Shown one piece after another: positions 15,779 to 39,700 of a DNA stretch of 64,000 bases (positions are counted from its first letter, which is position 1; every line of letters begins with the position of its first letter). Source of the DNA: Gigantopelta aegis (taxonomy: Eukaryota > Mollusca > Gastropoda > Neomphalida > Peltospiridae). The notes under the pieces are model-generated. The model was not told where the DNA came from. It searched no databases and was given only the letters and a program-made list of their open reading frames with translations. The stretch is taken from positions 49,757,866 to 49,821,865 of the forward strand of contig NC_054712.1 of assembly GCF_016097555.1 (NCBI RefSeq), in the 5' to 3' direction. Made by a program: the position numbers and the translations under genes.

Positions 15779-18700
15779 GTGCGTATTTCTAATATTTGTA
15801 TTTAGTGCAGGAAAGGAGAGGGGTGAGAGTTCAGGAAGGAAAATCGTGTCGCTGCTTGTTTGACGGCATCGCAATATTTGTATTTTTATTATTTAGCACA
15901 TGTAAAGCCATCTGGTAATTAGTTTAATTATTCAAATTTGGGCGTGAGTTCGACCCGTATCCCCCCCCCCCCCCCTTTCAATGGTTAGGGTTAGTTTTAA
16001 GCTTAGGATTGGTATAATATCCGCCCGGTCACCCCGTTATTATTTTTTGTTATGGGGAGGGAGAGGACCGGGTGGATATTTTTCCAACTGCGACTTTCAC
16101 CAATTTCCAAATTTTGGAGTTAACAGCAAAGGTATACTGAGCTAGAACCCACCAAACTACCTGCCAAAAAAACAAACAAAAACCAAACCCCCAAAACAAT
16201 CCCTAATAATTCAACATTTGTTTTCAGGATTTTGGTTAAAGGAAGCATATTACCGAGAATGGCCTGATGTAACATTTAAGAGAGAGATGATTGTGATTCT
16301 CGAGCTACAGGATCCCGGAGAATACGTCACCTACAGCACTTACCAGAAATACAACAAACTGCAAGAGGACCGACTTCGAGTTCCCGTCATTAAGGCAAAT
16401 AATTCATTATGAATTACAGGGACCGAGGGATGGCCCTTGGAGAGGAGAAAATGTTGCCAAATTGTCTAACCAAAACCACTGTTATTTTCAATCAAATTAT
16501 CAATCATGGCATGAAAATATTTTGAATTAATTTAGAAACATGTACTAAATTGCAAACACTAATAAACACATAATTGAATGTCTTGCCCACCATTAACCTA
16601 TTCGGGGTTGCTGAAAGTTGCAACAAATTTTACCTGAATGCATGTTACAAAATTTGTTTTAATTAAACTTTAAATTTAAAAAAAATAAAAAAATAAAATA
16701 ATTTTCAAACATTGCAGAATATGGCTGATGCCGAGTTGCAGATTTGATGCAGTAAAAAAATAATAAAACATAAAGTAATAATAACAGTCATTCAGAAAAA
16801 GACAACTTGCCTGTCGGACCTGTTGCATTTTTGACCTCATCTGTCAGAATTTGGCAAGCAGGCAAGTACTTTCTGCACCCCTGTGAATTTGGGCCAGTGG
16901 TTTAACTTGGTGGGTTGGTGAAAATCTCAACGTCCAAGTCCAAAGTGTTCAACATGCACATTCAAAGCAAGCTGTTGTAGTGCACGTCTGTCCTGGGCAC
17001 GTGCCAGCCTCGGCCGGCTCCTCCGTCCAGGACAGGAAAGGTAGGGTGGGTTGGAGGGGGGGGGGGTTGGAGGGGGGGTGGACTGCCTACATTGGCTGGT
17101 GCAAGGGAGCACCAGCAGTCCGACCGTAGCTGGTAACAGGTGGTATGGTGAGCACTATCGAATTTGGAATGTCCCGTAGGATTAAGCCAAAGAGAATGGG
17201 TGCACATTTTTGATGAAGGAATTTAGGTGCAATTTTGAACAGTCTGTCTCAGTGGAAAGGTAGGGAGGAGCTACGTATAGGTTTCGAAGTTAGTAGGCCA
17301 AGAGTAGCTCGTTTATTGGACCCATGTGGTGCTGATATGTCTCCCTAGGTTGCCCATAGCTAGGGGCCCTTAAAAGGGCCCGAACTGTTCAGCTCAAACC
17401 ACAGGTCCTGACTAGAGGCTTTATAAGACATTTTGTCAAAACACTGACTATTTGTATAATGACAGCTTAATGTTTTATGTCCACAGGCACGGGAAGTAGA
17501 CATCAATGGTGATGGACGCTATGACAAACTATTGCTGGATATTGAAATGCCTCTGCAGGACAGTGAAAATGTGATTGGCGTAAAACTACTCACTGTTTAT
17601 TACTACAGACTAAAGGTATGAATATACATGTATCTCGACCAGGGTTTGAAGTAAAATAGCATGATTCTGTGCTTCAACGAAATCCCAGGTTTTTTGTGTT
17701 GGAAATGTAAGATTACGGGACGGAATCCCAAACTATCTTTGTTAAATCATGTTTATGATTCTAGTGGAATCCAGGGCTGGCTCTGGCAATTGCCAAATTC
17801 GTCAATTGCGAATTTTGAAAACAATTGCTGAATTTTATTTTTATTGGTGAAATTATTTTACTAGAAAATAACTGCTTTTCTGTCATTTTTGAAGTTTAAT
17901 AAATAATTTGGCGAAACTTTGTGTTCACCGAGAGCTGGCCCTGGAATCCTAAAAACAAATCCACAAATTCAGTGCATCAGGGCTTCTAGATTGTGGTAGC
18001 CCAGTGTTCGAGATTAAAAATTTTGGCCAGTATCCCAGTTGGATACTAACATTTCAAAATCTGGTATCCCACCTGAGAATTTAGTATTATATGGTATCCC
18101 GGTGGGATACTGGGTTCTTGAAGTCTGGTATCCAAAATTAAATTCTGGTATCCCCGGGATATCGGAATACCGTTAATCTCGAACACTGTAGCCCCACTCC
18201 CATGGCTAGTGATATTCAGTGTTGGGCTACATATGAATATCCTGCCCCTACCACGACCACTCAGTGTTATTGTTTTTAAGCTCTATCTCCCTCTTTGGAT
18301 GACATATCCGATTATTACTATTAATTAGTAAAATTATATTAACTTAAAGAAAAGTAGGGCTAGTGAATTTTTATTCATGGCTAATCAATTTGTAAAATCA
18401 CTGATCCCATGGCTAGTGGATTTTATAAAAATTCTAGAAACCCTGATCTACATGTATGTTAAATCATGTTTATGATTCCAGGGCTAGCTCTGGCAATCGC
18501 CAAATTCGTCAGTTGCAAATTTTGAAAAGAATTGGCGAATTTGATTTGGTGAAATAATTTTTACTATATTTGATTAGAAAATAACTGCTTTTCTGTAATT
18601 TTTTAAGTTTAATAAATAATTTGGCAAAACTTTGTGTTCACCCAGGGCTAGCCCCAGGTGGAATCTTAAACAAAAATCCACAAATTCAATACCTCAGGGC

Positions 18701-21700
18701 TTCTAGATTATGGTAGCCCCATGGCTAGTGATATTCAATGTTGGGCTAGTAAATAACTACCCGAGGGCTATTGAAAAAAACAATTGTCAAATGTTGCAGT
18801 TAAGTCTATTTTGTAAATATGAATATCCTACTGACATCCCAACCCCCCAATGTTAGTATTTTTAAGCTCTATCTTCCCCTTTAGGTGACATATCTGATTA
18901 TTACTATTATTTAGTAAAATTGTATTAAAAGTAAAGTAGGGCTAGTGAATTTTTAATTGTGGCTAGTACATTTTTAAATTCACTGATCCCATGGCTATTG
19001 GATTTAAAAAAAATTCTAGACGCCTTGAATGCATGCATATACGTTTACATGTCATCAGGATCACAATGAGAACCAACAAGCAGAACCTGCTACGTCCAAA
19101 GTTGTAGGGTTTTTCTCTTTTTAAAAGAGCGAAAGAAAAAAAAATGGTTTTAAAGTTGCAGACCATAGACCAACCCGCGAAAATGGATGCTACGTTTGGG
19201 TAATCTACAGACCTGTAACACAGTTGGATAAAGTTACAATAGGCCTATAGTGAAACAAGAGTCTGTGACGTTGAAACAGGGAAATATTCTTAAAAATAGA
19301 CTAGAGCTCGTCTCTATAACTGTTGCTTCTTAGAAGTAATGTGTGCGTTTTTAAAAATATGAAAAAGCTTTTCGTGGTGTTAGAAACACGGTGGATGACA
19401 AGAAGTACTTCAGATGTATGGAAAAGGATTTATCGAAACAATAACAACTAAGTAATGTCTTATGTTAATGACAAATATGGCTCAAATAATGAAAATTACT
19501 AGTATGCCATAGTGTTTTACAACTAGGATATGTTACTTTAATGTTTACAAATTTGCAAAAGAAAATCTGAAAATGAAACTTTGTTGTTTAATTGTGAAGA
19601 AAAGAGAAACAAGATAGGGGACAGGCCTCTTTTGTATAGTACCAGTCTGACTACTAGCTCTGCCAATTGGCAATTGCAAATTTTAAAAACAATTTGTGAA
19701 TTTTATTTTAATTTGGCGTAACAGATTTCTTATTTTGTTGGAAAATTACTGGGTTTCAAAAAAATAAATAAAAAATTGATGTTCTGGAAATATAGGAGGA
19801 CAGCAAAGTGTGATAATGGGGAAACAAAGACACATGCTACAGGCCCTGCAGATCCTTAAACCGACTCTGTCAGCAAGAAACATCACAGTAGTAAACAACA
19901 GGCCAAAACATTTATTTTAATAAACATGTTAGCGAGAGAACTGCGATTTGTCTATACAGTGATCTGTTTTCATTTTCAGAAATTTTCGTCTTTTTTTATG
20001 GAGTCACTTGGCTACATAGAGCATTTTTCACCACAAGCTGGCGCCAAACTTGAAATATTTGGAGACATTCAGCTACGACAGAAAGAACCGCTGGGACACA
20101 AGGGCGTTGATAAAAGATATAACGTACGTATAGCAAAAGGTTGTAACTTCTTTGCCATTTTTTTTTCCCCTTTTGTAAAATTGTTTAAAGGTTAAATTTA
20201 CAATATAAAGTAAAGTTAAAACCTGACCAAAAAAAAAAGTTTTGTCAAAGCAAAATATCATCATATGACATTAGGCATATTTTCATTTTCAATCAAGGCT
20301 TTTTGACTAAAAGGGGTAAAAACATGAGTTAATTAACTTAGTGACAAAAAACTGGTTGCAATGGCACCAGTTAGGCCACTTGTGTTGTCATAGCCCATGC
20401 TATAAAGATAGCATAAAATAATATGGTGTGGTAATTATGTAACGTTTATTGTAAACCAGGTTCCACTGCGAAATAAAACATTTTGTTTGCTAATACTGAA
20501 TTTATGCTTGACCAATGTCTGGATCTTTTAGAGGCCAAAGACCCAGCACCGATTTTGTTCTATATTTGTCAACTCTACCATACTCTCATTAACAGCCGAT
20601 CCCATGGAATAGGGTCATGACTGAAGTAGGTCATGTTTGACATCAGTGTCTGTCATGAATCGTGTCTTGACTCTCAACATACCGGTAGTTCAGTGTTTCC
20701 TGTTATGTTATATATCAAGTGAAACTTTCAAAGAATACAAATATGGTGGTGGTGTATGTGTGTGCAGCGCCCTCAATAGTTTAAGAAGTAGCAGGCTACA
20801 ACAGTGATGATAGCGGGGGGGGGGGTCTGGGGGCCCTCCCCGAGAAACATTTGAAAAATCGAACCTCTGAGATGCATTCTCATGGCCTCTGTTAGCGCAA
20901 ATCAGTCACCATCCATAAAATGCAGCAACTGAACAATTTTACTCGAAAAGTAGGCGGCAGCAAAAGCTGTTTCAGGCGGCGATTTGCCGCCGGAGACCGG
21001 GTACTTTTGAGGGCTCTGTGTGTGTGTTTCCATGTGTGTGTGTGTGTGTTAGAGATGGGGCAATTACTTGACAAAAGTAATCGATTACGATTACTTAAGA
21101 ATGTCCTGATTACAATTACAAGAAAATTGTAAGTAAATGATTACAATTGCAAATGCATTGTCCAGTAATCATGATTACATTTCAATATATATGCACAAGT
21201 AGTGAAATGATGTCACTAACATGATGTTCACTTCATTTTATTAACTATACTGATGGAAATAAATAAAGGATCACACAGATAGTAACAAAGAAAGAAAGAA
21301 ATGTTTTATTTAACGACACACTCAACACATTTTATTTACGGTTATATGGCATCAGACATATGGTTAAGGACCACACAGATTTTGAGACGAAACCCGCTGT
21401 CGCCACTACATGGGCTACGAAACCCGCTGTCGCCACTACATGGGCTACTCTACATATATAAAATTATGGTTGGAGATGTTTTATTTATTGAATAAGAATA
21501 AGAATTGTGTACGAAGCCAAAACAAGGGTCCAAAAAGTGACTGTTGTCGACCTTAACTATCGTGGATTAAAAGCTCGTTGGTTAGTAGTGTTCCTGTCTC
21601 AAGTTTTGGTATCGCGCTCATTAAATTGTAAATATTTGTCACCGTTTTCATCTGTTTTCAGTTCAAATTTTCCACAAAATAGCATTTTAAACAAACCAAG

Positions 21701-24700
21701 CAAAAACTTTGTTTACATATCGCAAAGGGAATTCCCGGTAACCATGTGCTATAAATAGTAGCGTTGAATACGGTATAGTTCCGGCAGTTGAGTTGAATAC
21801 GGAACAGTGTATTTCATTGCACTGAAAATGTAAGATATTATATGATAAAACATTTTATTTGCTAATACTGAATTTATGCTTGACCAATGTCCGGATCTTT
21901 TAGAGGCCAAAGACCCAGCACCGATTTTGTTCTATATTTGTCAACTCTACCATACTCTCATTAACAGCCGATCCCATGGAATAGGGTCATGACTGAAGTA
22001 GGTCATGTTTGACATCAGTGTCTAGTCATGACAAGTGTCTGTGAATCGTGTCTTGACTCTCAACATACCGGTAGTTCAGTGTTTCCTGTTATGTTATATA
22101 TCAAGTGAAACTTTCAAAGAATACAAATATGGTGGTGGTGTATGTGTGTGCAGCGCCCTCAATAGTTTAAGAAGTAGCAGGCTACAACAGTGATGATAGC
22201 GGGGGGGGGGGGTCTGGGGGCCCTCCCCGAGAAACATTTGAAAAATCGAACCTCTGAGATGCATTCTCATGGCCTCTGTTAGCGCAAATCAGTCACCATC
22301 CATAAAATGCAGCAACTGAACAATTTTACTCGAAAAGTAGGCGGCAGCAAAAGCTGTTTCAGGCGGCGATTTGCCGCCGGAGACCGGGTACTTTTGAGGG
22401 CTCTGTGTGTGTGTTTCCATGTGTGTGTGTGTGTGTTAGAGATGGGGCAATTACTTGACAAAAGTAATCGATTACGATTACTTAAGAATGTCCTGATTAC
22501 AATTACAAGAAAATTGTAAGTAAATGATTACAATTGCAAATGCATTGTCCAGTAATCATGATTACATTTCAATATATATGCACAAGTAGTGAAATGATGT
22601 CACTAACATGATGTTCACTTCATTTTATTAACTATACTGATGGAAATAAATAAAGGATCACACAGATAGTAACAAAGAAAGAAAGAAATGTTTTATTTAA
22701 CGACACACTCAACACATTTTATTTACGGTTATATGGCATCAGACATATGGTTAAGGACCACACAGATTTTGAGACGAAACCCGCTGTCGCCACTACATGG
22801 GCTACGAAACCCGCTGTCGCCACTACATACAGGTCAGTACTTTTTCTTTTTTTTCATAATTCTGGACAAAATATTAATTTGAAGTTTTGAAAGGCTACTC
22901 TACATATATATCAAATTATGGTTGGAGATGTTTTATTTATTGAATAAGAATAAGAATTGTGTACGAAGCCAAAACAAGGGTCCAAAAAGTGACTGTTGTC
23001 GACCTTAACTATCGTGGATTAAAAGCTCGTTGGTTAGTAGTGTTCCTGTCTCAAGTTTTGGTATCGCGCTCATTAAATTGTAAATATTTGTCACCGTTTT
23101 CATCTGTTTTCAGTTCAAATTTTCCACAAAATAGCATTTTAAACAAACCAAGCAAAAACTTTGTTTACATATCGCAAAGGGAATTCCCGGTAACCATGTG
23201 CTATAAATAGTAGCGTTGAATACGGTATAGTTCCGGCAGTTGAGTTGAATACGGAACAGTGTATTTCATTGCACTGAAAATGTAAGATATTATATGATAA
23301 AACATTTTATTTGCTAATACTGAATTTATGCTTGACCAATGTCCGGTTCTTTTAGAGGCCAAAGACCCAGCACCGATTTTGTTATATATTTGTCAACTCT
23401 ACCATACTCTCATTAACAGCCGATCCCATGGAATAGAGTCATGACTGAAGTAGGTCATGTTTGACATCAGTGTCTCCACGATGCCACCGAGGCCGGTAGA
23501 TAGCAACAAGAAATAATGACATGTTTGACATCAGTGTCTGTCATGAATCGTGTCTTGACTCTCAACATACCGGTAGTTCAGTGTTTCCTGTTATGTTATA
23601 TATCAAGTGAAACTTTCAAAGAATACAAATATGGTGGTGGTGTATGTGTGTGCAGCGCCCTCAATAGTTTAAGAAGTAGCAGGCTACAACAGTGATGATA
23701 GCGGGGGGGGGGGGGTCTGGGGGCCCTCCCCGAGAAACATTTGAAAAATCGAACCTCTGAGATGCATTCTCATGGCCTCTGTTAGCGCAAATCAGTCACC
23801 ATCCATAAAATGCAGCAACTGAACAATTTTACTCGAAAAGTAGGCGGCAGCAAAAGCTGTTTCAGGCGGCGATTTGCCGCCGGAGACCGGGTACTTTTGA
23901 GGGCTCTGTGTGTGTGTTTCCATGTGTGTGTGTGTGTTAGAGATGGGGCAATTACTTGACAAAAGTAATCGATTACGATTACTTAAGAATGTCCTGATTA
24001 CAATTACAAGAAAATTGTAAGTAAATGATTACAATTGCAAATGCATTGTCCAGTAATCATGATTACATTTCAATATATATGCACAAGTAGTGAAATGATG
24101 TCACTAACATGATGTTCACTTCATTTTATTAACTATACTGATGGAAATAAATAAAGGATCACACAGATAGTAACAAAGAAAGAAAGAAATGTTTTATTTA
24201 ACGACACACTCAACACATTTTATTTACGGTTATATGGCATCAGACATATGGTTAAGGACCACACAGATTTTGAGACGAAACCCGCTGTCGCCACTACATG
24301 GGCTACTCTTTCCAATTAGCAGCAAGGGATCTTTTATTTGCGCTTCCCACAGGCTGGATAGCACAAACCATGGCCTTTGTTGAACCAGTTATGGATCACT
24401 GGTCGGTGCAAGTGGTTTACACCTACCCATTGAGCCTTGTGGAGCACTCACTCAAGGTTTGGAGTCGGTATCTGGATTAAAATCCCATGCCTCGACTGGG
24501 ATCCGAACCCAGTACCTACCAGCCAATAAGTAAATTCAATAGCAATTTTACATTGGAATTTTTCCAAAAAGGAAACGTCATGTAGGCCTATTTTATGGTT
24601 ATTGTAAGGGAGATGCAAAGTGACGTCATTGGAATACTGACGTCATTTAAATTCAGAATTAGCTGTATTATTACAATGCTGCGCCACATAAAATAAAAAC

Positions 24701-27700
24701 TAGTCTACTAACCTTGACCCCTGTCAAATTCCTATAACAAACAGATAATGCTGTTTACAGGTCAGTACTTTTTCTTTTTTTTCATAATTCTGGACAAAAT
24801 ATTAATTTGAAGTTTTGAAAGATGAAATAACTAAAAGCTACCTTTTGTCAAATATATCATATCACAAAATTATGGTTGGAGATGTTTTATTTATTGAATA
24901 AGAATAAGAATTGTGTACGAAGCCAAAACAAGGGTCCAAAAAGTGACTGTTGTCGACCTTAACTATCGTGGATTAAAAGCTCGTTGGTTAGTAGTGTTCC
25001 TGTCTCAAGTTTTGGTATCGCGCTCATTAAATTGTAAATATTTGTCACCGTTTTCATCTGTTTTCAGTTCAAATTTTCCACAAAATAGCATTTTAAACAA
25101 ACCAAGCAAAAACTTTGTTTACATATCGCAAAGGGAATTCCCGGTAACCATGTGCTATAAATAGTAGCGTTGAATACGGTATAGTTCCGGCAGTTGAGTT
25201 GAATACGGAACAGTGTATTTCATTTTTGTATTCAGGGTTGTATTTATATAGTAAGATTTAATGGGTATGTAATAAATAAAGGTTATTACCAGAGTGTTTT
25301 TCGGTATCGTCAATATCATATATTAGGAATAAAAATTGTATTATGCGAGCCTCTGGCGAGCATAATACATTATTTTTATTCCTAATATACTAGTATGATA
25401 TTGACGATACCGAAATACACGAGGGTAATAATCTATCATATAAGCTCAAGCTTAATACAACGTGTTTTTGTAAACTGTACACGCAACTTTAATTCCAGTC
25501 CGCCATTACTAGATATTCAAATGACGTAAGAATATGTGGCGCAGTGTATTTTTTAATGGAAATGATGTCAAACTCGAATGATGTCATTTTGGATGTCCTT
25601 ACATCAAAATAAAGTTATGCCTAACATTTTTTGTTTTCCGAATGCTGGACAGCTTTCAGTGTCAAATTGCCATTGAAATGTTTTTATTTGATGATTATGA
25701 ATGCATACGTCAATCATGGAGTGTCACCCAGGTGCGTTTGCTTAAATGTCAATAAACCTAGTGCCGAGACCTCGACTAATTTACATCTAATTTGCAAAGT
25801 TATCAAATTCTTAAAGTATGTGATCTGAAAAATATCACATACTTTGATTGCACTGAAAATGTAAGATATTATATGATAAAACATTTTATTTGCTAATACT
25901 GAATTTATGCTTGACCAATGTCCGGTTCTTTTAGAGGCCAAAGACCCAGCACCGATTTTGTTATATATTTGTCAACTCTACCATACTCTCATTAACAGCC
26001 GATCCCATGGAATAGAGTCATGACTGAAGTAGGTCATGTTTGACATCAGTGTCTCCACGATGCCACCGAGGCCGGTAGATAGCAACAAGAAATAATGACA
26101 TGTTTGACATCAGTGTCTGTCATGAATCGTGTCTTGACTCTCAACATACCGGTAGTTCAGTGTTTCCTGTTATGTTATATATCAAGTGAAACTTTCAAAG
26201 AATACAAATATGGTGGTGGTGTATGTGTGTGCAGCGCCCTCAATAGTTTAAGAAGTAGCAGGCTACAACAGTGATGATAGCGGGGGGGGGGGGGGTCTGG
26301 GGGCCCTCCCCGAGAAACATTTGAAAAATCGAACCTCTGAGATGCATTCTCATGGCCTCTGTTAGCGCAAATCAGTCACCATCCATAAAATGCAGCAACT
26401 GAACAATTTTACTCGAAAAGTAGGCGGCAGCAAAAGCTGTTTCAGGCGGCGATTTGCCGCCGGAGACCGGGTACTTTTGAGGGCTCTGTGTGTGTGTTTC
26501 CATGTGTGTGTGTGTGTTAGAGATGGGGCAATTACTTGACAAAAGTAATCGATTACGATTACTTAAGAATGTCCTGATTACAATTACAAGAAAATTGTAA
26601 GTAAATGATTACAATTGCAAATGCATTGTCCAGTAATCATGATTACATTTCAATATATATGCACAAGTAGTGAAATGATGTCACTAACATGATGTTCACT
26701 TCATTTTATTAACTATACTGATGGAAATAAATAAAGGATCACACAGATAGTAACAAAGAAAGAAAGAAATGTTTTATTTAACGACACACTCAACACATTT
26801 TATTTACGGTTATATGGCATCAGACATATGGTTAAGGACCACACAGATTTTGAGACGAAACCCGCTGTCGCCACTACATGGGCTACTCTTTCCAATTAGC
26901 AGCAAGGGATCTTTTATTTGCGCTTCCCACAGGCTGGATAGCACAAACCATGGCCTTTGTTGAACCAGTTATGGATCACTGGTCGGTGCAAGTGGTTTAC
27001 ACCTACCCATTGAGCCTTGTGGAGCACTCACTCAAGGTTTGGAGTCGGTATCTGGATTAAAATCCCATGCCTCGACTGGGATCCGAACCCAGTACCTACC
27101 AGCCAATAAGTAAATTCAATAGCAATTTTACATTGGAATTTTTCCAAAAAGGAAACGTCATGTAGGCCTATTTTATGGTTATTGTAAGGGAGATGCAAAG
27201 TGACGTCATTGGAATACTGACGTCATTTAAATTCAGAATTAGCTGTATTATTACAATGCTGCGCCACATAAAATAAAAACTAGTCTACTAACCTTGACCC
27301 CTGTCAAATTCCTATAACAAACAGATAATGCTGTTTACAGGTCAGTACTTTTTCTTTTTTTTCATAATTCTGGACAAAATATTAATTTGAAGTTTTGAAA
27401 GATGAAATAACTAAAAGCTACCTTTTGTCAAATATATCATATCACAAAATTATGGTTGGAGATGTTTTATTTATTGAATAAGAATAAGAATTGTGTACGA
27501 AGCCAAAACAAGGGTCCAAAAAGTGACTGTTGTCGACCTTAACTATCGTGGATTAAAAGCTCGTTGGTTAGTAGTGTTCCTGTCTCAAGTTTTGGTATCG
27601 CGCTCATTAAATTGTAAATATTTGTCACCGTTTTCATCTGTTTTCAGTTCAAATTTTCCACAAAATAGCATTTTAAACAAACCAAGCAAAAACTTTGTTT

Positions 27701-30700
27701 ACATATCGCAAAGGGAATTCCCGGTAACCATGTGCTATAAATAGTAGCGTTGAATACGGTATAGTTCCGGCAGTTGAGTTGAATACGGAACAGTGTATTT
27801 CATTTTTGTATTCAGGGTTGTATTTATATAGTAAGATTTAATGGGTATGTAATAAATAAAGGTTATTACCAGAGTGTTTTTCGGTATCGTCAATATCATA
27901 TATTAGGAATAAAAATTGTATTATGCGAGCCTCTGGCGAGCATAATACATTATTTTTATTCCTAATATACTAGTATGATATTGACGATACCGAAATACAC
28001 GAGGGTAATAATCTATCATATAAGCTCAAGCTTAATACAACGTGTTTTTGTAAACTGTACACGCAACTTTAATTCCAGTCCGCCATTACTAGATATTCAA
28101 ATGACGTAAGAATATGTGGCGCAGTGTATTTTTTAATGGAAATGATGTCAAACTCGAATGATGTCATTTTGGATGTCCTTACATCAAAATAAAGTTATGC
28201 CTAACATTTTTTGTTTTCCGAATGCTGGACAGCTTTCAGTGTCAAATTGCCATTGAAATGTTTTTATTTGATGATTATGAATGCATACGTCAATCATGGA
28301 GTGTCACCCAGGTGCGTTTGCTTAAATGTCAATAAACCTAGTGCCGAGACCTCGACTAATTTACATCTAATTTGCAAAGTTATCAAATTCTTAAAGTATG
28401 TGATCTGAAAAATATCACATACTTTGATTGCACTGAAAATGTAAGATATTATATGATAAAACATTTTATTTGCTAATACTGAATTTATGCTTGACCAATG
28501 TCCGGTTCTTTTAGAGGCCAAAGACCCAGCACCGATTTTGTTATATATTTGTCAACTCTACCATACTCTCATTAACAGCCGATCCCATGGAATAGAGTCA
28601 TGACTGAAGTAGGTCATGTTTGACATCAGTGTCTCCACGATGCCACCGAGGCCGGTAGATAGCAACAAGAAATAATGACATGTTTGACATCAGTGTCTGT
28701 CATGAATCGTGTCTTGACTCTCAACATACCGGTAGTTCAGTGTTTCCTGTTATGTTATATATCAAGTGAAACTTTCAAAGAATACAAATATGGTGGTGGT
28801 GTATGTGTGTGCAGCGCCCTCAATAGTTTAAGAAGTAGCAGGCTACAACAGTGATGATAGCGGGGGGGGGGGGGTCTGGGGGCCCTCCCCGAGAAACATT
28901 TGAAAAATCGAACCTCTGAGATGCATTCTCATGGCCTCTGTTAGCGCAAATCAGTCACCATCCATAAAATGCAGCAACTGAACAATTTTACTCGAAAAGT
29001 AGGCGGCAGCAAAAGCTGTTTCAGGCGGCGATTTGCCGCCGGAGACCGGGTACTTTTGAGGGCTCTGTGTGTGTGTTTCCATGTGTGTGTGTGTGTTAGA
29101 GATGGGGCAATTACTTGACAAAAGTAATCGATTACGATTACTTAAGAATGTCCTGATTACAATTACAAGAAAATTGTAAGTAAATGATTACAATTGCAAA
29201 TGCATTGTCCAGTAATCATGATTACATTTCAATATATATGCACAAGTAGTGAAATGATGTCACTAACATGATGTTCACTTCATTTTATTAACTATACTGA
29301 TGGAAATAAATAAAGGATCACACAGATAGTAACAAAGAAAGAAAGAAATGTTTTATTTAACGACACACTCAACACATTTTATTTACGGTTATATGGCATC
29401 AGACATATGGTTAAGGACCACACAGATTTTGAGACGAAACCCGCTGTCGCCACTACATGGGCTACTCTTTCCAATTAGCAGCAAGGGATCTTTTATTTGC
29501 GCTTCCCACAGGCTGGATAGCACAAACCATGGCCTTTGTTGAACCAGTTATGGATCACTGGTCGGTGCAAGTGGTTTACACCTACCCATTGAGCCTTGTG
29601 GAGCACTCACTCAAGGTTTGGAGTCGGTATCTGGATTAAAATCCCATGCCTCGACTGGGATCCGAACCCAGTACCTACCAGCCAATAAGTAAATTCAATA
29701 GCAATTTTACATTGGAATTTTTCCAAAAAGGAAACGTCATGTAGGCCTATTTTATGGTTATTGTAAGGGAGATGCAAAGTGACGTCATTGGAATACTGAC
29801 GTCATTTAAATTCAGAATTAGCTGTATTATTACAATGCTGCGCCACATAAAATAAAAACTAGTCTACTAACCTTGACCCCTGTCAAATTCCTATAACAAA
29901 CAGATAATGCTGTTTACAGGTCAGTACTTTTTCTTTTTTTTCATAATTCTGGACAAAATATTAATTTGAAGTTTTGAAAGATGAAATAACTAAAAGCTAC
30001 CTTTTGTCAAATATATCATATCACAAAATTATGGTTGGAGATGTTTTATTTATTGAATAAGAATAAGAATTGTGTACGAAGCCAAAACAAGGGTCCAAAA
30101 AGTGACTGTTGTCGACCTTAACTATCGTGGATTAAAAGCTCGTTGGTTAGTAGTGTTCCTGTCTCAAGTTTTGGTATCGCGCTCATTAAATTGTAAATAT
30201 TTGTCACCGTTTTCATCTGTTTTCAGTTCAAATTTTCCACAAAATAGCATTTTAAACAAACCAAGCAAAAACTTTGTTTACATATCGCAAAGGGAATTCC
30301 CGGTAACCATGTGCTATAAATAGTAGCGTTGAATACGGTATAGTTCCGGCAGTTGAGTTGAATACGGAACAGTGTATTTCATTTTTGTATTCAGGGTTGT
30401 ATTTATATAGTAAGATTTAATGGGTATGTAATAAATAAAGGTTATTACCAGAGTGTTTTTCGGTATCGTCAATATCATATATTAGGAATAAAAATTGTAT
30501 TATGCGAGCCTCTGGCGAGCATAATACATTATTTTTATTCCTAATATACTAGTATGATATTGACGATACCGAAATACACGAGGGTAATAATCTATCATAT
30601 AAGCTCAAGCTTAATACAACGTGTTTTTGTAAACTGTACACGCAACTTTAATTCCAGTCCGCCATTACTAGATATTCAAATGACGTAAGAATATGTGGCG

Positions 30701-33700
30701 CAGTGTATTTTTTAATGGAAATGATGTCAAACTCGAATGATGTCATTTTGGATGTCCTTACATCAAAATAAAGTTATGCCTAACATTTTTTGTTTTCCGA
30801 ATGCTGGACAGCTTTCAGTGTCAAATTGCCATTGAAATGTTTTTATTTGATGATTATGAATGCATACGTCAATCATGGAGTGTCACCCAGGTGCGTTTGC
30901 TTAAATGTCAATAAACCTAGTGCCGAGACCTCGACTAATTTACATCTAATTTGCAAAGTTATCAAATTCTTAAAGTATGTGATCTGAAAAATATCACATA
31001 CTTTGATTGCACTGAAAATGTAAGATATTATATGATAAAACATTTTATTTGCTAATACTGAATTTATGCTTGACCAATGTCCGGTTCTTTTAGAGGCCAA
31101 AGACCCAGCACCGATTTTGTTATATATTTGTCAACTCTACCATACTCTCATTAACAGCCGATCCCATGGAATAGAGTCATGACTGAAGTAGGTCATGTTT
31201 GACATCAGTGTCTCCACGATGCCACCGAGGCCGGTAGATAGCAACAAGAAATAATGACATGTTTGACATCAGTGTCTGTCATGAATCGTGTCTTGACTCT
31301 CAACATACCGGTAGTTCAGTGTTTCCTGTTATGTTATATATCAAGTGAAACTTTCAAAGAATACAAATATGGTGGTGGTGTATGTGTGTGCAGCGCCCTC
31401 AATAGTTTAAGAAGTAGCAGGCTACAACAGTGATGATAGCGGGGGGGGGGGGGGGGGGTCTGGGGGCCCTCCCCGAGAAACATTTGAAAAATCGAACCTC
31501 TGAGATGCATTCTCATGGCCTCTGTTAGCGCAAATCAGTCACCATCCATAAAATGCAGCAACTGAACAATTTTACTCGAAAAGTAGGCGGCAGCAAAAGC
31601 TGTTTCAGGCGGCGATTTGCCGCCGGAGACCGGGTACTTTTGAGGGCTCTGTGTGTGTGTTTCCATGTGTGTGTGTGTGTTAGAGATGGGGCAATTACTT
31701 GACAAAAGTAATCGATTACGATTACTTAAGAATGTCCTGATTACAATTACAAGAAAATTGTAAGTAAATGATTACAATTGCAAATGCATTGTCCAGTAAT
31801 CATGATTACATTTCAATATATATGCACAAGTAGTGAAATGATGTCACTAACATGATGTTCACTTCATTTTATTAACTATACTGATGGAAATAAATAAAGG
31901 ATCACACAGATAGTAACAAAGAAAGAAAGAAATGTTTTATTTAACGACACACTCAACACATTTTATTTACGGTTATATGGCATCAGACATATGGTTAAGG
32001 ACCACACAGATTTTGAGACGAAACCCGCTGTCGCCACTACATGGGCTACTCTTTCCAATTAGCAGCAAGGGATCTTTTATTTGCGCTTCCCACAGGCTGG
32101 ATAGCACAAACCATGGCCTTTGTTGAACCAGTTATGGATCACTGGTCGGTGCAAGTGGTTTACACCTACCCATTGAGCCTTGTGGAGCACTCACTCAAGG
32201 TTTGGAGTCGGTATCTGGATTAAAATCCCATGCCTCGACTGGGATCCGAACCCAGTACCTACCAGCCAATAAGTAAATTCAATAGCAATTTTACATTGGA
32301 ATTTTTCCAAAAAGGAAACGTCATGTAGGCCTATTTTATGGTTATTGTAAGGGAGATGCAAAGTGACGTCATTGGAATACTGACGTCATTTAAATTCAGA
32401 ATTAGCTGTATTATTACAATGCTGCGCCACATAAAATAAAAACTAGTCTACTAACCTTGACCCCTGTCAAATTCCTATAACAAACAGATAATGCTGTTTA
32501 CAGGTCAGTACTTTTTCTTTTTTTTCATAATTCTGGACAAAATATTAATTTGAAGTTTTGAAAGATGAAATAACTAAAAGCTACCTTTTGTCAAATATAT
32601 CATATCACAAAATTATGGTTGGAGATGTTTTATTTATTGAATAAGAATAAGAATTGTGTACGAAGCCAAAACAAGGGTCCAAAAAGTGACTGTTGTCGAC
32701 CTTAACTATCGTGGATTAAAAGCTCGTTGGTTAGTAGTGTTCCTGTCTCAAGTTTTGGTATCGCGCTCATTAAATTGTAAATATTTGTCACCGTTTTCAT
32801 CTGTTTTCAGTTCAAATTTTCCACAAAATAGCATTTTAAACAAACCAAGCAAAAACTTTGTTTACATATCGCAAAGGGAATTCCCGGTAACCATGTGCTA
32901 TAAATAGTAGCGTTGAATACGGTATAGTTCCGGCAGTTGAGTTGAATACGGAACAGTGTATTTCATTTTTGTATTCAGGGTTGTATTTATATAGTAAGAT
33001 TTAATGGGTATGTAATAAATAAAGGTTATTACCAGAGTGTTTTTCGGTATCGTCAATATCATATATTAGGAATAAAAATTGTATTATGCGAGCCTCTGGC
33101 GAGCATAATACATTATTTTTATTCCTAATATACTAGTATGATATTGACGATACCGAAATACACGAGGGTAATAATCTATCATATAAGCTCAAGCTTAATA
33201 CAACGTGTTTTTGTAAACTGTACACGCAACTTTAATTCCAGTCCGCCATTACTAGATATTCAAATGACGTAAGAATATGTGGCGCAGTGTATTTTTTAAT
33301 GGAAATGATGTCAAACTCGAATGACGTCATTTTGGATGTCCTTACATCAAAATAAAGTTATGCCTAACATTTTTTGTTTTCCGAATGCTGGACAGCTTTC
33401 AGTGTCAAATTGCCATTGAAATGTTTTTATTTGATGATTATGAATGCATACGTCAATCATGGAGTGTCACCCAGGTGCGTTTGCTTAAATGTCAATAAAC
33501 CTAGTGCCGAGACCTCGACTAATTTACATCTAATTTGCAAAGTTATCAAATTCTTAAAGTATGTGATCTGAAAAATATCACATACTTTGATTGCACTGAA
33601 AATGTAAGATATTATATGATAAAACATTTTATTTGCTAATACTGAATTTATGCTTGACCAATGTCCGGTTCTTTTAGAGGCCAAAGACCCAGCACCGATT

Positions 33701-36700
33701 TTGTTATATATTTGTCAACTCTACCATACTCTCATTAACAGCCGATCCCATGGAATAGAGTCATGACTGAAGTAGGTCATGTTTGACATCAGTGTCTCCA
33801 CGATGCCACCGAGGCCGGTAGATAGCAACAAGAAATAATGACTGGATCAAAAATCAATTCATACTGTCCGAAGTTGACTAGGAACATATAGGCAGCACAT
33901 TCAACACTACAGACATTCAGTCCCACATTACAACTTGGTATGAAATACAGACATTACTACGCTAGTTGTGAATTAAATTTGGTCTACAATTCGATGTGTT
34001 CCCTTATTTCTTTCAATCAGTATATATCAATTTCATTCATTGAAAGCCATAATGGAGAATTTTGGATTATTTATTAAATCATTTCAGAAATTTATGAACG
34101 TATGTACATGGCACAAATTATTATTATTATTAGAATTTAATTTACTAACCTTTTTTCTTTCTGTTTGTTTTGCGGGTTGGATGGGTTGGGGTGGAAATCA
34201 GTTTGCAAAACTAGATTTATTATTTTTAAATTTAGATCATTGAAAAAAAAGGTACATCCATAACCATATTTATCCTATAACTTACCTATGATATCCATGT
34301 CATCAACCCATGTGATAATTTAGTGTATTAACCCGGTTAATAATGGTATGCAAATTTAAAGGTATATTATGCAAATTTGCAAGGTCTTTAGATAATAATG
34401 TGTAGCTGTTGGGTCATTTGTGTACAAGCCAAAAAGACCTGTATACCTTAGCGTAATGTTTTCATAAGATTTAGTTAAAATGCATGATGTGAAACTAATT
34501 TGTAGTAATCATGATAACATCATATTATGGATGGAGGGGACTTTAGTACTGTCATTTACTAAAAATCAGATTAAAATGTCAGTTTAGAAGTGTTACAGAA
34601 TAAATAGAATTTGCTACTCGTGTTTTATAATATGTAAAATATCAACCTCATCTAGTTAATATAGACTTGGTTGATATTTTCCATATTAAAAAATACTTGC
34701 GACGAATCCTCTATATATAATTATTGTATCATTACATAAAATATATTTTTAAAATATTGAACTGCATGTAAGCCTTAATTAATAATTATTTGTTTGATCA
34801 CTATTATTTTTTGTTTTGTATTTGTAATATTTATACCATTTAATACCATCCACAAATAAAAATAAAAATAAATGAAATAATTTTTAAAAATCAATTAATG
34901 AGGAAATAATGACCGAAAGAAAGCAACAAAGAAGTAAAGTAATAAATTGATATTTTTACATATATTTGCACAAGTTGCTGATTGCATTTTGCTTAATTAC
35001 ATGTAGTTCCCTGATTTGTGGCTGTTTTTGTGACAGTGTGAGGAGGACTCTCCATGGAATCAAGCTTGATACTACAGCTGCCTGCCCGTCTGCAGAACAT
35101 TGTAACAAACAAAAAAGGAGAAATTTGTCACAGTACCATAGGTGGACTTGCACACCTGTGACCAAACGATGTATTGTTAAGCGTTTGTTAATTATGAATT
35201 CAGACCTGGAATAACACTACATGCTTTGAGAGGAAAGCAAGATTTTAAATTATTTTATTTCAATTTATTACTATTTTTTTTGAAGAAGATAATTAAGTTA
35301 TTTTATTATTGTGTCACATGACGTAAATCATAGAATATTAATATATGTATATATACAAAGGTTAGAAAGTACATGTACAACATCTGGCCCACGAGGCACT
35401 ACAAACATTTAACATTCTAAAATAGTTAAAAACACATTGTGCTAACTTCTAAGTAAAACATAATTTATTATAAAATGCAATACTGATGTTAAATTTTACT
35501 GTCGGTATATACGGACAGTTCTACTATTAGAGTAGCAGACAATGGGATATCAGTTCTAGTGTCAACACTGATTGACCAGTGCTGCAGTTGATGCTAAATA
35601 TACCTATGGGGTTTAGTAAATTATGAGTAATTATGAAAGTAATCGCGGATTAGCAATGTAATCGATTACGATTGTGATTACATGAAAACATGTAATTGAT
35701 TAAAATTGATTATGATTACTGATGTGTATATATACTTTTTATACGATATATGTGTAGGAATTCATAATATTGTAGACTAAATGGAGGCAAATATTTAGTT
35801 TGTTTAGTAATTAATATAAAAAAAGACATGCCCCCAAAAAACAAAACAAAAACCCCCAAACCCTAACAAATATCATTGGGAGTTGCACTGTCATTGCTCA
35901 AACCAATTAATTCATTTGTTCATTTGTTCATTCATTCATTTCTTCATTCATTCATTCATTTCTCCATTCATTCATTTATTTAAACATTCTGATTCATTCT
36001 TTCGCTCTCCAATTCATATTGTTCATGTTAGCTTTTGTTTTGCTGTTTATTACATAACTTCTTTTATTTTTTACAAATTGTTTTTTAATTGAACGTCATA
36101 TTAACTACACTTTCTTAAATCTATTGACTTAACTAATGTTAAGAATCATACTTTGTGACAATCATGTGCAATATAAGAAAAAGATCACACATGTGTGTGA
36201 TACCGGAAACTTTTATCACACGGTTTGAAAATGTCTTTATCACTATAGTAAGATTGAATAGGTATGTAATAATAATAGTATCAATTATTCCAACCTCAAA
36301 ACTGAACCTATAAATTACTTAAAAAAAATTAAAATTTAGCCCCGGATAGTACCTAAAGAAGCAACTGAAATTTAAACAAATTAATTTTCATTTATTGTTT
36401 TATTAAAGTAATAATAAAACATCAAAATACAATTACTGCATGCATGTAGTTTAAATATATTTACATAATGCGGGTAGAAATATAATTATAGAATGTCGGT
36501 AGACAGGGCTTCTAGGTTATGGAAGCCCCACACCCATGGCTAGTGATATTCAATGTTGGGCTAGTAAATAATTACTATTGCCATGCCCGATGGCTTGTGA
36601 AAAACAGAGAGTCAAATGTTGCAGTTAAGTCTATTTTGTAAATATGAAATCTTGACCCCACCCCAACCCCAATGTTAGTGTTTTTAAGCTCTATCTCCCT

Positions 36701-39700
36701 CTTTTGGTGACATATCTTATTATTACTATTATTTAGTAAAATTGTATTAACGTAAAGTAAATAAAGTAGGGCTAGTGAATATTTAATTGTGGCTAGTACA
36801 TTTTTTAAATCATTAGTGGATTTTTAAAAATTTCTAGAAGCCCTGTGGTAGAAATACAATTACAGATGGCAGGTGGAAATATACTAGGTAATTACAGAAT
36901 GAGCTACCTACATTGTATACACTTTAAATCTGTTTTGCTGTATACATTGTACTTTGTGTTCCCAATAACGAGTAAAACGTATTCCTACTTTTGCTTTCAT
37001 GTAAGCATCACAAATCGTCATACAAAATACCTACACTAAACATCCTAAACGTTATTCGAAAACAAGGACAATATTGTTATTAATTACATGACGTCATTCA
37101 CGATTGGGGCGGGACGTAGCCCAGTGGTAAAGCGCTTGCTTGATGCGCAGTCGGTCTGGGATCGATCCCCATCGGTGGGCCCATTGGGCTATTTCTTGTC
37201 AAAGCCGTGGTATGTGCTATCCTGTCTGTGGGATGGTGCATATAAAAGATCCCTTGCTAGTAATGGAAAAATGTAGCGGGTTTCCTCTGACGGCATCAAA
37301 ATGACCAAATGTTTGACATCCAATAGCCGATGATTAATAAATCAATGTGCTCTAGTGGTGTCATTAAACAAAACAAACTATCATTCATGATCAGTTTTGT
37401 TATGTCATTACCCGGCTGCAGTAGGGGAAAATCGTCACAAATTACATCACTATTTTAGCATGGCTGTTTTTCCATTTCGCCAGAAAGCAATTTTAATGCA
37501 GGTTTTTCAATAAACTTTTATAAAACTGAAACAGCCTTTATTGGAATCAACTTCTGATATTTGACTATAACTTGGCAAAACATGTTTTTGTTGTCTGATG
37601 AAACAAATATATAAACATATAATAGTCCCTTGGAGTTTCTGTTGAAAATGTCAAATTATACACCTGTCACACATACGGCTGAATTTACAAAGCCTGTTCT
37701 TGTCTTACATGTGTGTAACTACTGGTACATACATTAACAAAGCTTAAACACCTGTCTTTAAGGAAAACAAGTTTTCTAAATTCAGACCATAATGTTAATA
37801 TTGATGAGGGTTTTTTTAGTTTTTTTTACCCCCACAAAACCCCCACAAAAAACCCGCCCCAAAACAACAACTTTGTAGTGGAAGCAAAAATATAACTGTT
37901 ACTGTAACAGTGATTGTAGGTTTTGTTTATCTCTCATCTTAGTTTATAGAATTGAATTTTGGTTTCTCAAAATGATCTGTAAACGTGACTAAAATAGAAA
38001 CTTATAGCAATACTGGTAATCCTAATAGTGTATAAATGGAGGATACTCACGAGTGTCTTGTCACGTTGTGATATCATAATTTATCACCACCAATTGATAA
38101 TGGTATGAAATTCGAGGCTTGCTAAGGATTTTTATACTTTTATCAACGAGTGCTGATAAATTATGATATATGGGGGGGGGGGGGGGGGGTATTCTTTTTA
38201 TCACACATTATCATTATTTTCATTTGCGACAGTTGTAAACAATGTCAGTAATGTGGGTTGAATGTCACTATATGTGGCAGTGGTAGACTTGTTAACTAGC
38301 AGGACAGCAGTGGCGTGACATCACTAATGATAGGCTTAGTGCTGAAACAAACACAGTGATGGAACCAAATATTGTCTTGTGATTAAAATTTGACCAATCA
38401 AGATTATAAGAAGGGATATCTCCTGCAGAGAATATCGCAGGAGATGTCGCAAATAAGAGTGCCAGCGATATCTCCTACAAAAACCTTTAATGGATGATAA
38501 AGTGGTTTATGTGTGTGAAGGTATTTTAAAGAAAAATGTAGCAGAGGTAATAACTCAATTGCTACTCGTCAATACCGTTTATCTTGCACGAGTGAATTGA
38601 TGTTGTCCTTCCTGAACCATATGGCAAGAAAATGACCACACCAATTCATGAGTGCAAGATAAATAGTATTGCCGAGTAGCGATTTGGGTATTCTGTTTAT
38701 TACCCATTTTCAATATTTATCATTTTATGGAAGATTTTCGAACGATACTGTTGAAAATAAGTTTACAAGTTGAGAACAAGAGGCAGCGTTGCGTCATAGC
38801 TGTGACGTACATATCACTGATGACGTAAGTTAGTTATTGACATGACTTCCACCATGGAAACAATTCTTACAATTAACCACCTATAGTGAAGCACTGTTTA
38901 TGACGTCAAAATGTAGGTTATCTAGGGGAAGAAATGTTTTTTCCACCCACTTCTCTCTGCCCATATGGGTAATAAATAAAATTACAAACTGTACTAGTTA
39001 TTATCAAAATTATGTCTCTTGTGAATATAATTTTCATTTGTCACTTGCTAAAAATTTATTTTATTTGGAACATAAATTTGATAACTGTAGTAACGTGTTT
39101 CTTATTCTCTATACAAAACTGTATTTATTATTCTCTATACAAAACTGTACTTATTATTCTCTATACAAAACTGTACTTATTATTCTCTATACAAAACTGT
39201 ATTTATTATTCTCTATACAAAACTGTATTCACAGGGTGTGTGAGTGAGGCTGTATAACTTTGGTAATATAATTACATTACAGGAGACACTGATTAATACC
39301 ACCAGCTCCTTTGTGGAAACATATGAACTGTCGACCATATTCAGTCGCTACTTAGAAAGAAATGGTAAGTCATGTGTTAATTTATTTTTGTTAAAGGTAT
39401 TTCACTCTCAAAATAATTTGAGCAGTATGTTTATAAAATATCTACAGTTCGTTACTTGAAATATTATTCTTTATAGTATACATGTATCTGTGAGCACCTT
39501 AAAGGGACAGACCCTAGTTTTTAAACACTAAGGTATATTTTTCACCTAAACCCTAGTTTCAACCTGTAACAATTGACACTAAGTTTGGTTAATTTACAAA
39601 CTTGTAACAAATTTGGATACAATAGAGTCTGTGATGTTGAAATACCCTTAAAAATAGACTAATTAAAACATGATTCAATAATCATTACTTCTCAGACAGC

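Follow-up and report, generated by a model that had tools for sequence, protein, structure and literature searches.

A transposon-containing tandem array in intron 4 of TMEM231 in the vent snail Gigantopelta aegis, probably a megasatellite grown by unequal exchange

Intron 4 of the TMEM231 gene of Gigantopelta aegis holds a 13.4-kb array of direct tandem copies at 20473-33842 of the window, by which we mean the whole 64,000-nucleotide stretch of DNA that was analysed and to which all coordinates refer unless a contig is named. We propose that this array is probably an intronic, transposon-containing megasatellite without evident function, in which an older duplication of a 179-bp segment (D) at the end of a transposon was followed by recent amplification through unequal exchange. 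The array has the structural features tested for a kind already described in human, as that kind is set out in the part of PMC2588610 drawn on here. It consists of head-to-tail copies of a unit of at least ~1 kb (six units of 1372-2584 bp and a remnant), and the unit contains interspersed elements, which bear no repeat-library names, and no gene. The locus is compact, and the birth of a megasatellite may be read from it: an older short duplication, then recent amplification of the sequence between.

Self-BLAST and alignment of the window resolve the array into two short units, four long units and a terminal remnant, with the following boundaries and lengths.

20473..33842, plus strand: whole tandem array, six units and a 224-bp remnant (self-BLAST, alignment)
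20473..21844, plus strand: unit 1, short, 1372 bp (alignment)
21845..23296, plus strand: unit 2, short, 1452 bp, with large deletions in common with unit 1 (alignment)
23297..25875, plus strand: unit 3, long, 2579 bp (alignment)
25876..28455, plus strand: unit 4, long, 2580 bp (alignment)
28456..31034, plus strand: unit 5, long, 2579 bp (alignment)
31035..33618, plus strand: unit 6, long, 2584 bp, holding an 18-G run (alignment)
33619..33842, plus strand: terminal remnant, made of D (179 bp) and a 45-bp stretch, followed by the right flank (alignment)

An earlier note on this DNA had placed the array at 20472..33840, which starts one base early and stops two bases short, and had described seven near-identical copies. 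Seven direct copies are indeed present, but only the four long ones are near-identical: units 1 and 2 have both undergone the same large deletions relative to the long units, and the seventh copy is the 224-bp remnant. The range of 2579-2584 bases that the note gave for the long units agrees with our measurements, and its G-run lengths for units 1-6 (11, 12, 13, 14, 13 and 18) are exact. When units 3-5 were compared with units 4-6 by self-BLAST, they were 99.89% identical over 8001 bp, with 2 mismatches and 3 gaps opened, and in the alignment a single substitution (in unit 6) and the length of the G run account for all differences among units 3-6. Sequence identity of such length across the array is no chance match. 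The short units and the long units form two separate blocks. Within the first block, unit 2 has extra letters amounting to a net 14 bp after D and 65 bp in the core, the latter (22829-22893) being absent from unit 1. Of the two flanks, the left one (20124-20472) does not match the array at all, and the right one (33843-39282) does so only in two pieces of repeat that are short and diverged (29 and 77 bp; 81-93%); the last 45 bp preceding the right flank recur in units 3-6. The larger deletion of units 1 and 2 (joins at 21819 and 23271, versus 25225-25842 of unit 3) takes out the fold-back of a dispersed repeat described below as repeat iv, and ATT stands at each of its ends; the smaller one has a 30-bp local duplication as filler at its join.

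The identification of the host gene as TMEM231, made in the earlier note, is borne out. A PF10149 profile search of the window matched four exons, and three further exons were located with two probe sequences, of which the match for exon 5 is weak when taken alone (E = 0.004 to 0.010). Joined together, the seven exons give a protein of 312 aa that aligns to profile positions 1-300 of 301 with E = 2.3e-101, the splice sites having been picked by eye. The profile thus runs over the whole protein, and the exons, splice sites and frame of TMEM231 are intact. The two exons that enclose the array are as follows.

19980..20123, plus strand: TMEM231 exon 4, donor GTACGT (profile match, gene model)
39283..39364, plus strand: TMEM231 exon 5 (probe match, weak alone; gene model)

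Intron 4 accordingly extends from 20124 to 39282 (19,159 bp), and the array fills 69.8% of it, in keeping with the earlier figure of about 70 percent of a 19-kb intron. The array begins 349 bp past the exon 4 donor and stops 5,440 bp short of the exon 5 acceptor. This donor and this acceptor are normal in appearance. Nothing shown here matters for TMEM231 itself, and since the organism is a deep-sea snail, the earlier remark on ciliopathy concerns homology only. Five of the introns are GT-AG. Intron 2 (16395-17486) apparently has a GC-AG pair (GCAAAT...CCACAG; site picked by eye). A 26-bp minisatellite of 5.1 copies is present at 39098-39229, upstream of exon 5, with 53 bp between the two.

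The comparison of D with the remainder of the unit bears on the history of the array. Two segments at the start of the units are needed for this comparison.

20473..20651, plus strand: D of unit 1, 179 bp, which matches this array alone (genome search, alignment)
23476..23520, plus strand: 45-bp stretch between D and the remainder of the unit, unit 3 copy (alignment)

D of unit 1 differs at 5 sites from D of units 3-7 and at 2 from D of unit 2. The latter is intermediate, with its first two variable sites as in unit 3 and its last three as in unit 1. The 45-bp stretch is identical in units 3-6 and at 33798-33842, beside the right flank, and is missing from units 1-2; in unit 1, D joins the core directly. 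The core itself, 1,118 bp common to all six units, has 0 substitutions in any pair and differs in length only. Between unit 1 and unit 3, D therefore carries 5 substitutions in 179 positions versus 0 in 1,118 for the core (Fisher p = 4.8e-5, for a split that was picked after the data had been seen). Recent expansion or homogenisation, as the earlier note had it, is the natural reading of such a core, with the reservation that the identity may be inflated by polishing. An identical core next to a divergent D fits growth by unequal crossing over, and it might also have come about by gene conversion or by technical evening-out. Likewise, the pattern of letters in the D of unit 2 is what would be expected if copies of D had undergone exchange, and it is also consistent with stepwise mutation, given that 2 of the 10 choices of two from five sites cluster at one end.

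The unit is a mosaic, and much of its length is made up of dispersed repeats. Their positions in unit 3 are given below.

23649..23916, plus strand: dispersed repeat with the G run, about 265 bp (genome search)
24175..24524, minus strand: SINE-like dispersed repeat (self-BLAST); the SINE label and the strand are presumptive and do not come from a repeat library
24525..25278, plus strand: dispersed repeat iii (genome search)
25272..25880, plus strand: dispersed repeat iv, with a fold-back on its 5' side and the 3' end ...TATATGATAAA (genome search)
25283..25430, plus strand: fold-back (imperfect palindrome) within repeat iv (DNA folding)

The genome that holds the window comprises 1,149,253,464 bases in 5,216 contigs, and the counts of dispersed copies in it are lower bounds, scoring having been limited to the best 40 candidates per search. 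With 22029-22805 as the query, 46 matches were obtained, 40 of them outside the array (38 in the G-run element and 2 in the SINE-like element; best 40 candidates scored). Part of repeat iii had 34 of 40 matches elsewhere in the genome, at 95-97%, and repeat iv had 36 near-full-length places elsewhere, at 94-96%, among 84 matches, again with the best 40 candidates scored in each case. Relatives of the SINE-like element were found across the window by self-BLAST, and the element is truncated by deletion in units 1-2. The fold-back belongs to repeat iv and is present in its other copies; as DNA it reaches -52.7 kcal/mol versus a mean of -10.0 (sd 2.4) for 200 shuffles. The other copies of repeat iv begin at their own 5' end after varied flanks. 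The query 20200-20760, which covers the left flank and the beginning of unit 1, gave 44 matches when the best 40 of 85 candidates were scored in the genome of 5,216 contigs: 11 were in this locus, and 33 lay only within the first 113 query bases, before the array. In that search, nothing outside this array matched either D or the beginning of the core. One repeat iv copy elsewhere (L048, 2759-4376) ends early and runs directly into a minisatellite of ~63 bp that is ~1.6 kb long, and further tandem repeats are found near repeat iv copies in L046 and L048.

All six internal boundaries of the array are the same junction, at which the 3' end of repeat iv is joined to D, and the bases around it are identical at all six for 29 positions before and 12 after. 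Of 26 copies of repeat iv, 16 have GATAAA no more than 50 bases past the searched part, followed by varied letters (one of these, L028, has different letters next to it), and the other 10 copies are without it there. The GATAAA and the varied letters that follow place the unit junction at the end of repeat iv or close to it. The end of repeat iv has ATAAA in common with the start of D at the left boundary of the array, where these letters follow a different sequence.

We propose that the array was built in four steps. In the first and older one, a 179-bp copy of D would have been added to the 3' end of repeat iv, where the five letters ATAAA are shared with the start of D; a five-letter overlap at an A/T-rich junction is weak support for this step. 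The two copies of D would then have formed direct repeats ~2.4 kb apart, on which sister chromatids or homologues could pair out of register, and through such mispairing the segment between them would have been duplicated by unequal crossing over. In the third step, two internal pieces might have been lost in the lineage of units 1-2. Since the SINE-like element is cut short in these units, the short form would be derived from the long form. A second round of amplification, taking in 45 bp of the right flank, would finally have given rise to units 3-6. We infer the order of the last steps (the deletions in units 1-2 and the second round) from sequence comparison, and the order of events as a whole is read from one assembly. 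Gene conversion restricted to the core could take the place of the two-step timing. The resulting array would be passively carried and spliced out with intron 4. A more specific version of the first step, which we consider doubtful, is that the array was seeded by one templated copy of upstream intron sequence (D) at a broken transposon 3' end, primed by the five common letters, and that the direct-repeat pair so formed was later used by unequal exchange. If this were true, transposon ends may recurrently be a source of new megasatellites in this genome.

It is possible, although on the unlikely side, that the array is partly a product of assembly, that is, that a real array was altered when short-unit and long-unit alleles were chained or the number of long units was mis-set, and that its copies were evened by polishing. 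The genome of this vent snail is 1.15 Gb in 15 pseudo-chromosomes, in the part of PMC7895826 drawn on here, and the assembly described there, the likely source of the window, was made from Canu-corrected PacBio subreads with wtdbg2, two rounds of Racon, and Pilon with short reads (PMC7895826). The two blocks of units are what chained alleles would give, and the near-absence of substitutions among units 3-6 points the same way. With assembly and polishing of this kind, the number of repeat copies can come out wrong and the differences between them can be smoothed away. In a wtdbg2, Racon and Pilon assembly, copy number, identity and G-run lengths may therefore be partly technical; the identity of the units may be inflated by polishing, and the G-run lengths are weak evidence. 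Against this explanation, the left flank is free of array matches and the right flank has only its two diverged pieces, apart from the recurring 45 bp before it, and no second left flank joined to unit 1 was found in the 5,216 contigs among the best 40 of 85 candidates scored. Moreover, polishing alone should not keep D different while leaving the core identical. The library fragments were size-selected at 8-50 kb, as the same part of PMC7895826 states, so that some reads could span 13.4 kb. The reading of the array as a megasatellite grown by unequal exchange comes with a caution of wider use: near-identity and copy number in polished long-read assemblies are not to be taken at face value.

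It is highly improbable that the array has a function, for instance in the regulation or splicing of TMEM231 or in giving rise to small RNA. The array occupies most of a large intron and repeat iv has a strong fold-back, but the units are mostly dispersed repeats, and the fold-back is the dispersed element's own, found in its other copies. No stop-to-stop frame of at least 100 codons is present within 20473-33842, and the window has 0 matches to Rfam families at gathering scores, by which a known RNA family in the units was rejected.

Rolling-circle (Helitron-like) amplification, with repeat iv and D as the two ends of an element replicating head to tail, has hardly any credibility: all of the six internal boundaries do combine the repeat iv end with D, and a hairpin with a 12-bp stem ends 35 bp short of where the folded stretch stops, at the 3' end of repeat iv, but the genome search, with the best 40 of 85 candidates scored, found D and the core next to it at no other locus, which makes D unlike the end of a mobile element, other repeat iv copies start at their own 5' end after varied flanks, and the 3' end is not CTRR, the hallmark of Helitrons. 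A Helitron tandem array, in which the ends of the unit are those of a dispersed rolling-circle element, was likewise rejected, the D end being found at this locus only in that search.

The RNU2 macrosatellite has a unit size of about 3 kb or more. DXZ4 and the 3.3-kb 4q35 array (D4Z4) are macrosatellites of variable copy number (PMC2588610, in the part drawn on here). The TMEM231 array is like DXZ4, D4Z4 and RNU2 in its tandem units, which in those arrays are about 3 kb or more; variation in copy number, so far as the sources drawn on describe it, is a feature of theirs. They carry genes or have proposed chromatin roles, and nothing comparable was seen in this array. Closer in make-up are the human megasatellites with interspersed transposable elements in their units, whose expansion was presumed in 2008 to have occurred by unequal crossing over, and other human arrays in the same paper sit wholly inside an intron (PMC2588610, same part). 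The present array shares with the human megasatellites of that account the kilobase-long tandem units and the transposable-element pattern, an intronic location being known there as well; unlike them, it lies in a mollusc gene, is small (13.4 kb) and has a junction that maps to the end of a transposon or close to it. Satellite DNA related to transposons in bivalves offers a further parallel, as tandem repeats tied to transposable elements, molluscan or general, are treated in PMC11136912 and PMC5139131; in the parts drawn on here these papers deal with families of satellite DNA and the way these are dispersed through a genome, whereas the whole unit described here was found at one locus. Among the papers listed on TMEM231 intron tandem repeats, macrosatellites, and mollusc tandem repeats and transposons, the titles and abstract openings contain no report of this array.

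A second, diverged match to the TM231 profile is located on the unplaced 64-kb contig C1080 (6568-6762; profile positions 233-300). The 3,195 bp around this match are similar to the window in simple repeat only, and when low-complexity sequence was filtered out, its first 10 kb did not match the window at E 1e-8, by which C1080 was rejected as an alternative TMEM231 allele. It is therefore unusable for a comparison of copy number. The profile match has two TAA in frame, and G+C makes up 31.5% of those first 10 kb; the match may represent a paralogue or foreign DNA.
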